From an uncultured Polaromonas sp. (GTDB taxonomy: Bacteria > Pseudomonadota > Gammaproteobacteria > Burkholderiales > Burkholderiaceae): 14,196 nt of DNA. The position numbers were made by a program, and so were the translations under genes. This document shows positions 1,034-3,727 of this stretch, one piece after another; position 1 is the stretch's first letter; every line of letters starts with the position of its first letter. The notes under the pieces are model-generated. The model was not told where the DNA came from, did no database searches, and saw nothing but the letters and a program-made list of their open reading frames with translations. Location of the stretch: contig CAMLDT010000079.1 in assembly GCA_946479075.1 (NCBI GenBank), forward strand, positions 1-14,196, read 5' to 3'.

Positions 1034-1783
1034 CTAGAAAGCCTGCAGATCGATCATCATCTGCCGGGTTTTGAGAACCTTCACATCGCAATGGTAGTGC
1101 AGCAAGGCGCGCAACTGGGTCTTGAGTTGCGGCAGGTGCGCCACACAGGCCCGCACCGTGTCGGTAAAGGGCGCACCGTCGGCCAGTGAGGCCTGCAGTT
1201 CCAGCCACTGGGCGCCGCGCAGGCTGGCGCGGTCATCGTCGTGGGCCTCACGCAGGCCCGATTCTGCAACCAGCACATAAGGCGTCTGCGGCGCCAGCGG
1301 CGCCAGCGTCGCGGTCTGGGCGTCCAGCGTCGGCAGCAGGCCGATGTCACGCAACAAGCGCAGTTCAAAAGCGCGCAAAGCCACCTGCAGGGTATCGGCG
1401 CTGGGGCTGGCCAGCAGTTGCACCGTGGCCGCATAGGCGTCGAACAGCACGGGATGCGGGTCGTCGCGCGCCAGCAGGCGCATCAGCAATTCGTTGAGGT
1501 AGTAGCCGGAGAGCAGCGCATCGCCGGTCGGCATCACATGGCCGCCCTGCCATTCGGCGCCGCGCAACATGCGGATCTCGGCGTCCCCGCCAAAGGCCAG
1601 ATGCAGCGGCTGCAGTGGCAGCAGGATGGGACGGAAGTTGGAACTCGGCTTCTTGGCGCCGCGCGCCACCAGCGCGATGCGCCCGTAGTTGCGGCTGAAG
1701 ACCTCCAGGATCAGGCTGGACTCGCTCCAGTCGTAGCGGTGCAGGACGTAGGCTGGCTCGTCGCTGATGCGTTTGGTCACCAT
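1034..1783 (-). CDS. recO: DNA repair protein RecO
   Basis: RecO works with RecR (and RecF) in the RecF pathway: it binds single-stranded DNA and SSB, helps load RecA at gaps and anneals complementary strands. The 249-residue product has the family layout. An N-terminal OB fold covers about residues 8-85 ([20 protein letters not shown], then [12 protein letters not shown]). A helical domain follows, with the [11 protein letters not shown] segment near 95-105 and the [13 protein letters not shown] motif near 140-152. I see no cysteine cluster for zinc. The start is ATG at 1783, followed by an in-frame [18 protein letters not shown] is a typical beginning. Upstream there is only one base before a 144-bp inverted-repeat element, and no clear Shine-Dalgarno. 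It lies between era and pdxJ, the usual betaproteobacterial order. Confidence 0.95.
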
Positions 1784-1784
1784 G

Positions 1785-1928
1785 CCGGTGCGCCTATAAA
1801 TCCGACGGCCGGGCGCATGCCGGCGTTGCGCGGCGCCCGGAATCCTCCTGCACCCAAGTGCATTCCGGTGTCCTGCGCTCCGGGCACCCTGGCCTGCATC
1901 CCGGCCCCCGAATTTCTAGGCGCACCGG
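1785..1928. repeat. 144-bp foldback element with 17-bp terminal inverted repeats (MITE-like candidate)
   Basis: The ends are inverted repeats: 1785-1801 pairs with 1912-1928 at 16 of 17 positions, starting with CCGGTGCGCCTA and ending with TAGGCGCACCGG. Pairing continues inward through 1807-1813 (GGCCGGG) with 1900-1906 (CCCGGCC). The middle holds a further hairpin, CCGGAA (1837-1842) with TTCCGG (1863-1868) enclosing TGCAC/GTGCA (1849-1853/1858-1862). A separate CCGGGCGC/GCGCCCGG pair (1809-1816/1833-1840) offers an alternative fold. There is no open frame of note and no obvious target-site duplication. It fills almost the whole era-recO gap, so it is probably transcribed within the operon as structured RNA. 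A dispersed MITE/REP-like repeat is my inference; a local RNA regulatory structure is the alternative. Confidence 0.8.
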
Positions 1929-1935
1929 AACTCCA

Positions 1936-3009
1936 TTACTCGTAGCCAAAAGTTTTGACACGCGCTTCGTCGTCCGCCCAGCCCGAGCGCACCTTGACCC
2001 AGATCTCCAGAAACACCTTGCCGCCGGTCAGCGCTTCCATCTCGTGGCGCGCCTCGGTGCCAATGCGTTTGAGCTTTTCGCCCTTCTCACCAATGATCAT
2101 GCCTTTGTGGCCGTCTCGCTCGACCACGATGGTGGCGGCAATGCGGCGCAACTCGCCCTCCTGCTCGAACTTGTCGATGATCACGGTGGAGGTGTAGGGC
2201 AGCTCGTCGCCGGTCAGGCGAAACAGCTTTTCGCGGATGATTTCTGCCGCCATGAAACGCTCGCTGCGGTCGGTCAGCTCGTCAGCGCCATACATCCAGG
2301 GCTGCTGCGGCAGGTATTTTTCACAGATGCCGAACAGGCGGTCCACATCCCTGGCATTGTTGGCCGACATCGGCACAAACTCGGCAAAGTTATGGCGCTC
2401 CTGCATGTCCTTGAGCCAGGGCGCAATCTCGGCGCGCCGGTGGATCAGGTCGAACTTGTTCGCCAGCAAAATGGCCGGGGTGCCGGCCGGCAACAACGAC
2501 AGCACTTTGTCATCGGCGGGGTTGAACTGGCCGGCCTCGACCACAAACACGATCAGGTCCACGTCATTGACGGCACCGACCACCGTCTTGTTGAGCGAGC
2601 GGTTCAGCGCATTGCCGTGCCGGGTCTGAAAGCCGGGTGTATCGACAAACACAAACTGCGCGGGCCCGACCGTGCGCATGCCGGTGATGCGGTGGCGCGT
2701 GGTCTGGGCCTTGCGCGAGGTGATGCTGATTTTTTGCCCGACCAGCGCGTTGAGCAGCGTCGATTTGCCCACATTGGGCTTGCCCACAATAGCGATCAGG
2801 CCGCAGCGCTGGCCTTCGGCCGGTGGTGCGTTGTTGGCCTGGGATGTCATGGCCCGGGCCAGCATGGCTTCGAGCTCCACGTTTTGTGCAGGCACATCCA
2901 CCCCCAGGGCTTCGGCCGGGAGGGTGGCGGCCGGGGTCAGCGGGCGCGCGGTTTTTTTGGGGTTTGCTTTTTTGCCTGGGGTCATGTCGGTGCCTGTGGA
3001 CGCCTGCAT
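1936..3009 (-). CDS. era: GTPase Era, with N-terminal extension
   Basis: Era is an essential GTPase that binds the 3' end of 16S rRNA and helps mature the 30S subunit. From the first ATG the protein has 357 residues, against about 300 in most bacteria. The GTPase domain shows G1 GKPNVGKS (76-83), the switch region around [11 protein letters not shown] (98-108), G3 DTPG (123-126), G4 NKFD (184-187) and G5 MSANN. A KH RNA-binding domain follows, with [15 protein letters not shown] near the C-terminus. The first 65 or so residues are Ala/Pro/Lys-rich and lie outside the fold. Alternative starts are ATG at 2985, with a weak AGG upstream, and ATG at 2850, which would give a standard 304-residue protein but has no visible Shine-Dalgarno. 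The gene lies 19 bases after rnc, a classic pairing. Confidence 0.96.
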
Positions 3010-3028: not shown

Positions 3029-3727
3029 TCAGTCGAGCGTCTTCACATAAGCCAGCATGGCGGCGGCAGCCGCCTGCTCACCGGCACGGCGCGAACCGCC
3101 AATGCCGCGTTCGGCTCGCCCGTATTCGCTGATCTCGCATTCCACATCGAAGGTCTGCTTGTGGGCTGCGCCCAGGGTGCCGACCACGCGGTAGATCGGC
3201 AGATTCATTTTGCGGCCCTGCAGCCATTCCTGCAACTCGGTCTTGGGGTCCTTGCCGATGGCCTGCATGTTGGGGTTGATCTCGACCGCGCTGAACAGCC
3301 GGCGCACGAGCTGGTCGGCTTTGGCAAACCCGGCGTCGAGGTAAACCGCCCCGATCACGGCCTCCAGCGCATCGGCCAGGATGGACGGCCGCTTGTGCCC
3401 GCCCGACTTGGCCTCGCCTTCCCCCAGGCGCAGCAGCGGTGGCAGCCCGAGTTGAACGGCCAATTGGTGCAGGGTGTCCTGCTTGACGAGATTGGCGCGC
3501 ACCCGCGAGAGATCGCCTTCGGGCAAGTCGCTGAGCCGTTCATACAGCAGCCCGGCGACCGCAAGATTGAGCACCGAATCGCCGAGGAATTCGACGCGCT
3601 CGTTGTGGTCCGCGGAAAAACTGCGGTGGGTCAAAGCCTGCTGCAGCAGGCGCGGATCGGAAAAAGCATGCTCCAGCCGCTTTTGCAGCGACTGGAGATC
3701 GGGACTCAACGAGGCATGGGCACGCAC
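3029..3727 (-). CDS. rnc: Ribonuclease III
   Basis: RNase III cleaves double-stranded RNA, processing the rRNA precursor and many mRNAs. The 232-residue product has the family signature [12 protein letters not shown] (42-53). The metal ligands Glu46, Asp50, Asp119 and Glu122 correspond to E. coli Glu41, Asp45, Asp114 and Glu117. The C-terminal double-stranded-RNA-binding domain spans about residues 159-230, with [11 protein letters not shown] and the Ala-rich [15 protein letters not shown] helix. The start is taken as GTG at 3727, directly after the TAA of the DUF4845 gene with no gap, so it is probably translationally coupled. No ATG lies between there and the catalytic domain. The neighbouring order lepB-DUF4845-rnc-era is usual for betaproteobacteria. 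Confidence 0.97.

Follow-up and report, generated by a model that had tools for sequence, protein, structure and literature searches.

Between era and recO of an uncultured Polaromonas sp. lies a 144-bp palindromic unit, and the question is what such a unit is and how it came to stand in a housekeeping operon. The initial annotation of this DNA proposed a MITE-like or REP-like dispersed element, mobilised by a transposase encoded elsewhere. In this study, we analysed the whole 14,196-nt stretch (the window) together with related loci and genomes. We found that the unit belongs to a dispersed family that is absent from the same site in relatives, that its core and its pairing are kept, and that many copies abut stop or start codons. 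The reading we favour, with a probability of about 0.6, is that of a MITE-like mobile hairpin element, non-autonomous, which inserted at this site long ago.

The foldback at the era-recO junction

Direct reading bears out the terminal inverted repeat described earlier, with 1785-1801 and 1912-1928 paired at 16 of 17 positions, as well as its inner block, in which GGCCGGG (1807-1813) is perfectly complementary to CCCGGCC (1900-1906). A repeat finder run on 1700-2050 returned a single inverted repeat, with arms at 1785-1813 and 1900-1928 (29 nt, 86% complementary, 86 nt between them). Folding of the minus-strand RNA, a check that the initial annotation had proposed, gave a strong structure for 1775-1938 (-96.4 kcal/mol, z -6.20); the plus strand as RNA reached -86.3 kcal/mol (z -5.17), and none of 200 dinucleotide shuffles folded as well on either strand. 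The covariance model R1 matched 1781-1932 on the minus strand at 150.3 bits, a score to be read in the light of the window copy being itself among the 52 sequences from which R1 was built. The parts of the element are collected in Table 1. In other copies, alignment columns 7-17, in the 5' outer arm, carry two-sided compensatory changes, and the apical stem-loop covaries to CGTAC/GTACG and TGTAC/GTACA. We found no promoter- or terminator-like sites in 1600-2100, no Rfam family at gathering level anywhere in the window, and no BLAST match of the window element among plasmids and phages.

Table 1. Features of the foldback and its neighbours, in window coordinates
Feature	Position	Strand	Basis
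Foldback element as first drawn	1785-1928	-	Repeat finder, folding, covariance model R1
5' outer arm as read on the minus strand, variable between loci, paired with 1785-1796	1917-1928	-	Folding, alignment
3' outer arm, ending 1 nt before the recO start codon	1785-1796	-	Reading, folding, alignment
Core: near-invariant AAAT/ATTT block, second covarying stem, conserved imperfect hairpin	1798-1916	-	Invariant columns, covariation
Apical stem-loop, TGCAC..GTGCA type	1848-1863	-	Alignment, covariation
Segment resembling Rfam sX9, below the 44-bit cut-off	1848-1906	+	17.5 bits, E 0.51
Candidate target duplication, CCAT at the recO start codon	1780-1783		Direct reading; not significant alone
Candidate target duplication, CCAT sharing one base, the last, with the era stop codon	1933-1936		Direct reading
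era, upstream neighbour	1936-3009	-	Pfam
recO, downstream neighbour	1034-1783	-	Pfam
rnc, upstream of era	3029-3727	-	Pfam

The minus strand is the coding strand of rnc-era-recO, and the closest recO genes are those of Polaromonas (best 95% identity) and of other Comamonadaceae. Both era and recO could be placed in 76 of 80 loci fetched from relatives, and R1 found the element between them in three of the 80 (L005, L012, and L018). In L003, L039, L064, L072, L075, L076, and L078 the junction is empty, with 0 bp between the two genes and the era stop codon adjoining the recO start codon, and in L038 it measures 1 bp; in the empty form the era stop codon stands beside a recO GTG. The comparison of the gap in close relatives, also suggested earlier, thus revealed an insertion boundary. 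In many Polaromonas relatives among the loci listed (L001, L004, L006-L010, L026, L036, and others), a different GC-rich foldback repeat (GCCCCCACGGTCGCTCACTGCG..GCCCCCCGAGGGGGC..) fills the same gap, with tandem copies in L046. The arms of the 3' hairpin in this other repeat likewise differ yet pair (e.g., L057, L058, and L049), and the repeat may be the BRE of Hot 2011. Since the gap is empty in some relatives and holds another repeat in others, the element is an insertion, and foldback repeats have settled at this junction on more than one occasion. One relative has an additional full copy at L021 5641-5792 (143.6 bits), a few kb away from recO.

The initial annotation saw no evident target-site duplication. 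This has to be qualified, as the CCAT at either end of the window copy (ATGG on the coding strand) is a candidate duplication, albeit one in which a 4-bp match alone proves nothing. At the same junction, L005 carries GTGG on both sides of its insert and the empty relative L003 carries a single GTGG. In the window, the insertion would have removed the direct coupling of recO to era, and, by the predicted fold, a very stable hairpin of the rnc-era-recO transcript now has the recO start codon at its base. The last of 12 paired bases lies a single base ahead of the recO AUG, and slower initiation of recO would be expected. The hairpin would likely be a substrate of RNase III as well as a brake on recO translation, and the brake might be relieved if RNase III, encoded by rnc in the same operon, cuts the stem.

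A dispersed family with a conserved core

With the 144-bp unit as query, 25 of 38 genomes of relatives gave a match at E<=0.001 and 13 did not. We examined 70 of the 94 matches listed plus L012, that is, 71 rows representing 70 places (L117 is the same place as L012). When clustered by flanking sequence, these copies fall into 40 clusters, 27 of them with a single copy; because a few clusters match one another on one side, the loci may really number a little under 40. In the family around G018, R1 matched at least 63 of 150 genomes at E<=1e-4, and in the class at least 58 of 274; both counts are lower bounds because filters were strict and 20 (family) or 11 (class) candidates per genome were scored. 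The genome G051 holds at least 20 copies by R1, and the pattern of its arms suggests about 23. Hence, the search against relatives proposed earlier found a multi-copy element at many unrelated loci rather than a single-copy sequence, and the short, non-coding, dispersed copies with filled and empty sites are those expected of a MITE. In L105 and L150 (genomes G032 and G015), the apical part is replaced by further sequence (GGGTTTTTGGGGTCAGAGCCCAAATT..GTGTCTGACCCCAAT) that is itself capable of folding back, apparently a repeat inserted within a repeat. In several Polaromonas genomes, copies abut matches to anti-hemB (Burkholderia RNA 7, RF02837) at an orthologous locus (L131 1386-1475, 47.2 bits, below the 49.5 cut-off; L133 1635-1728, 55.3 bits).

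The core of the Polaromonas copies consists of a CAGAAATTCG/CGGATTTAT block followed by GGCAAGGCGC..CGGAGCGCAGGA..CCGGAA, the apical stem-loop, and GAGGATTCCGAGCACCGCGCAACG. In the outer arms and the second stem, it is the pairing that is kept and not the sequence. R1 and the underlying alignment A1 comprise 52 of 72 rows (the window and the 71 others); L098, L099, L101-L105, L115, L117, L119, L137, L139-L145, L147, and L150 were left out on account of length, internal inserts, truncation, or redundancy. Across 52 pairs and 52 sequences, 93.0% of the cells in A1 are paired. Two-sided compensations occur at 31 pairs and in 254 cells, compared with 20.1 and 74.8 in shuffles, none of 500 of which came as high. 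Sliding the partner by one to three columns lowers pairing to 30-45%, a control that favours the tested structure, derived as it was from the consensus of the same alignment. Multi-copy genomes each have an arm sequence of their own, AGAGGGTGAGAACTTTT in G051, GGGCACTTCTAGAAATTC in G147, and AGAACTTGTGAAG in G182, with variants of which several are compensated. Thus, the arms travel with the unit inside a genome and are replaced, or drift, between genomes. The expression "terminal inverted repeats" therefore does not hold in the sense of one sequence for the whole family; the arms are specific to locus and genome and are kept complementary. In this respect the element departs from a MITE, the terminal repeats of which are conserved and common with an autonomous element: here arms are conserved within a genome and vary across loci and genomes.

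On the element strand, which is the minus strand of the window, imperfect pairs are biased, with 106 G.U against 33 A.C cells when two pairs in which U.G is the rule are left out. A count of one per pair type yields 32 against 19. Outside Polaromonas the excess is 68 to 45. This excess counts cells with common ancestry, which weakens the argument from asymmetry. Selection on folding of the host mRNA would predict a ratio that reverses with the direction of the neighbouring genes. The observed ratio is the same where both neighbours run with the element (44:10, 18 copies) and where both run in the opposite direction (39:9, 19 copies). Smaller classes of gene context gave 9:6, 8:3, 0:1, and 6:4; for these counts, the contexts of L083, L107, L112, and L132 were revised by eye, and four rows were left without a class. 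A fixed element strand, as folded DNA or RNA, fits the asymmetry better than folding of host mRNA.

Gene ends, insertion, and rival explanations

Copies lie in gaps between genes, and the neighbours often run in the same direction. We scored the two ends of 80 copies (40 Polaromonas-group loci, 20 copies of G051, nine of G147, and 11 of G182) against reading frames of at least 100 codons. A stop codon coincides with the right end only in 40 of the 80 copies, with the left end only in one, with both in seven, and with neither in 32 (sign test, 3.8e-11). In the same order, the groups contribute 14/0/1/25 (Polaromonas group), 17/0/2/1 (G051), 2/1/1/5 (G147), and 7/0/3/1 (G182). For G051 this amounts to 19 of 20 copies with a stop codon at one or both ends. 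Two of the 19 are open to doubt, namely L162, where the in-frame stop is probably fortuitous since a longer frame ends 11 bp further on, and L175, where the stop falls 1 bp beyond the end of the model. As for the target motif, CTCAG/CTGAG sites in 400 kb of G051 fall at in-frame stops 40 times, at other places between predicted genes 191 times, and inside genes 620 times; stop codons are thus a minority (17%) of the non-genic sites, and these counts come from a simple gene prediction (78% coding) that under-calls genes.

An independent set gave 10/4/4/10 (p 0.18). It drew on 28 further genomes with one copy each, scored under slightly looser settings (80 codons and a wider window), and comprised 28 of 29 loci, the core-only match L369 being left out; the sequences of L345 and L358 had been seen beforehand. 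In L367 and L372 it is the left end that sits on a stop codon. Placement on stop codons thus recurs, and the right-end polarity holds only in part. Start codons reveal no clear polarity overall (right only/left only 9/2, 1/0, 1/2, and 1/2), and some Polaromonas copies abut one, the window copy included. In L083, a copy at 1448-1599 lies directly upstream of a tRNA gene (RF00005, 1611-1684); a TATAAT stands at the edge of this copy, so an arm of the element may form part of the tRNA promoter.

The sister genome G191 lacks the insert at all eight G051 copies compared. Its empty sites, located by alignment and without recomputing the frames, have a stop-codon triplet at the corresponding spot in all eight cases, four TGA and four TAA or TAG; at L163, L164, and L174 the comparison met unrelated or partial sequence in place of a clean junction. 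In the cleanest pair, L161, the empty site reads ..GATCAG|GCG and the filled site ..CTCAG|element|CTCAG|GCG. Six G147 copies were selected for their clear ends; in these, the four flush bases match at 21 of 24 positions, a value that 4 of 720 permutations reached. A stricter duplication test gave modest results for all nine G147 copies (28/2000) and for the independent set (36/2000). The same test was not significant for Polaromonas (675/2000) and went in the opposite direction for G051 (1990/2000) and G182 (1941/2000), two genomes in which it registers the uniform CTCAG ends badly. When the register was left free, no group was significant: 256 (G051), 79 (G147), 165 (G182), and 90 (Polaromonas) of 300 shuffles reached the observed value, and in a second test of 1000 the numbers were 80, 56, and 87 for G147, 202, 111, and 247 for Polaromonas, and 491 and 556 for G182. 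A symmetric-register test yielded 18 of 28 full matches against 5.2 expected, 6 of 9 against 1.7 in G147, and 4 against 4.6 in Polaromonas, with no excess in the latter; we set it aside for the stricter test because it is inflated by the palindrome itself. Altogether, recent insertions probably carry a target duplication of 4-5 bp, which in older ones would have eroded or be missing.

A search of G051 for an autonomous partner returned none: the 43 matches to its arm resolve, by eye, into 20 pairs 122-190 bp apart and three singles, two of which are known full copies and one of which lies at a contig end. Nor did a search beside the Y1 transposase genes of 15 genomes link a transposase to the element. 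Thus, of the proposal that a MITE-like dispersed element had entered a housekeeping operon, the dispersal and the empty site stand, and the transposase acting in trans was not found in these searches. The element is also much longer than a REP.

How far do other explanations account for these data? A chance palindrome, or a feature private to the era-recO locus, can hardly be entertained: the fold z-scores, the copies in 25 of 38 genomes, and the covariation contradict it, and we found nothing to count in its favour. Movement as a REP/BIME-type element by a RAYT (Y1 HUH) transposase is improbable. A Y1_Tnp gene does occur in 15 of 16 genomes searched, as a single gene in 11 of the 15 and mostly of about 240 residues, and REPs of the GTAG type are likewise reported to end on stop codons of flanking frames (PMC3733652). 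Against this, the copies measure 144-152 bp and not 20-40, no R1 match reached E<=1 at any of the 21 Y1 loci searched, each taken with some 1.5 kb of flanking sequence, and copies flanking a RAYT gene, the arrangement typical of REP/BIME-RAYT systems, were not seen; the RAYT-like Y1 genes at L282-L297 do not have the present element beside them. RAYT (Y1 HUH) chemistry is not known to produce target duplications, which, if real here, would also count against it.

Two further explanations concern the paired arms. Correction of quasi-palindromes, by template switching in the hairpin during replication, would keep arms complementary without selection and make covariation the by-product of an inert repeat. 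We consider it a minor contender, for which the compensated variants between near-identical G051 copies speak (GAGGGTG/CACCCTC and GAGGCTG/CAGCCTC). However, it should erase the conserved mismatch (G opposite A beside the AAAT block) and the asymmetric core, both of which persist, and it does not predict a bias of G.U over A.C. Somewhat better placed, though still unlikely, is a conserved cis-acting or sRNA-type RNA family under selection in host transcripts, with little or no present mobility and with roles such as RNase III processing, protection of 3' ends, or release of sX9-like RNAs. The strong covariation, the match of one arm to a family filed in Rfam as a Xanthomonas sRNA gene (sX9), and the position of copies in intergenic gaps, often between same-direction neighbours, would all suit such a family, but the wobble asymmetry that does not follow neighbour direction, the sister species without the inserts, and the 27 of 40 locus clusters with a single copy argue otherwise; this last count comes from the 70 of 94 listed matches fetched, some from draft genomes, and does not prove absence elsewhere.

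The preferred reading, an old insertion of a mobile hairpin element, would work as follows. An enzyme supplied in trans would move the element and make a 4-5 bp duplication at short targets such as (C)TCAG or TNA; as these often coincide with stop codons, the codon would be preserved. More speculatively, the moving form may be one folded single strand, of DNA or RNA, in which case pairing would matter more than arm sequence.

Relatives and analogues

The initial annotation did not recognise the element as a named family. Rfam sX9 (RF02228, Xanthomonas) is a partial named relative, against which the window copy reaches just 17.5 bits. On the strand opposite to R1, the 76-nt model of sX9 covers one arm of the hairpin and its apical loop. 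In Rfam it is a 76-nt sRNA gene, whereas the element described here is a 144-152 bp foldback, multi-copy and inserted. The sX9 model matched L147 at 44.2 bits and 11 of 20 sampled copies at E<=0.01, and the sampled copies passing its 44-bit cut-off are L162 (50.9) and L164 (45.0). Five of ten loci in a further sample, most of the ten having been found through sX9, reached 44 bits. A class-wide sX9 search hit 7 of 185 genomes, three over the cut-off and two of the seven with 7-8 copies, and R1 matched nine of nine loci tried from it. In the Xanthomonas plasmid loci L335 and L336, strong sX9 matches lie 43-46 nt downstream of a gene end (82.8 bits for L336, on plasmid pXcB of X. citri); R1 gave no match at E<=0.1 in these two loci, and so we do not claim the full foldback there.

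In E. coli, 5216 of 5426 genomes contain a match to the core, at a median of three places and at most seven. These matches span 59-65 bp, or 58-63% of the 101-base query and never 80% of it, at about 79-81% identity in the rows listed. The E. coli foldbacks lie at qseE(glrK)-qseG, cysP-ucpA, and rlmKL-ycbX, and the R1 match of copy N3 ends 2 bp before the qseE (glrK) stop codon. Copies in E. coli, Klebsiella, and Yersinia are full hairpins with other arms (R1 43-65 bits, in Yersinia for the core only). The small E. coli repeat has the core in common with the element, but its outer arms are unrelated. It may be the "RSA" repeat (152 bp, 6 copies), on which a literature search found nothing.

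These relatives allow a bolder reading, which we put forward tentatively and consider rather doubtful as it stands: that mobile hairpins of this kind form one proteobacteria-wide family (Burkholderiales, Xanthomonas, and enterobacteria, with nearly every E. coli among them), that each is copied in folded form, as one strand, and placed exactly on a stop or start codon by some machinery that recognises shape and the conserved core instead of end sequence, and that sX9 is one arm of such a hairpin. The element itself is of more interest than a plain MITE because pairing is kept without end sequence, the codon seat is exact, and the sX9 hits and the E. coli repeat are joined in one family. If this reading is true, part of the sX9 "sRNA" hits in Rfam would be halves of a mobile repeat, and the repeat present in almost every E. 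coli would have jumping relatives. It would also imply an unrecognised transposition route with a substrate set by folding and gene ends as the target, and would offer natural experiments on giant hairpins between coupled genes such as era and recO.

In the literature searched, outside which most subscription papers lie, we found no description of this element. A 2024 review on MITEs names Polaromonas among their hosts and cites the JS666 paper; a MITE of that genome is therefore already in print and could be the present element. Stem-loop families of 40 genomes have also been surveyed (PMC2267715). The Beta-proteobacterial repeat element (BRE, Hot 2011) is reported as a dispersed repeat of about 90 bp with most copies (29) in Polaromonas sp. 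JS666 (PMC3110155). We liken it to the element by description only, and it may instead be the other GC-rich repeat of the era-recO gap.

Among other repeats, GTAG-tagged REPs are reported to have ends that often serve as the TAG stop codon of an adjoining frame (PMC3733652), so that a seat on stop codons is not new by itself. However, these REPs have 20-40 bp and use TAG, whereas the element has 144-152 bp, uses mostly TGA in G051 and G182, and has no linked RAYT gene. ERIC (RU-1), NEMIS/Correia, and RUP are, like the element, 100-170 bp, intergenic, and non-autonomous, and many can fold. Most of this group is described as AT-rich, with terminal inverted repeats bearing a TA end motif (PMC2229807), in contrast to the variable arms and the likely (C)TCAG/TNA target of the element. 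Integron attC sites were set aside: the conserved part of the element is its middle and not its ends. Tn7 inserts at attTn7 with its right end beside a gene end, in a fixed orientation and with a 5-bp duplication; unlike Tn7, the element has no long ends and targets many genes.

The closest described analogue in behaviour is YPAL/RU-2 of Yersinia. Homology with it was rejected, as nhmmer profiles gave no match and pairwise alignment with the 168-nt RU-2 did not rise above shuffles. The published descriptions present YPAL/RU-2 as a palindromic repeat of about 168 bp that is not AT-rich, has no TA ends, and makes target duplications (PMC2229807, PMC2759123, Delihas 2007), reported at 3 to 26 bp (PMC2229807, PMC2759123). 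Filled and empty sites, targets beside dyad symmetry, and expression together with upstream genes have likewise been reported for it (PMC2229807, PMC2759123).
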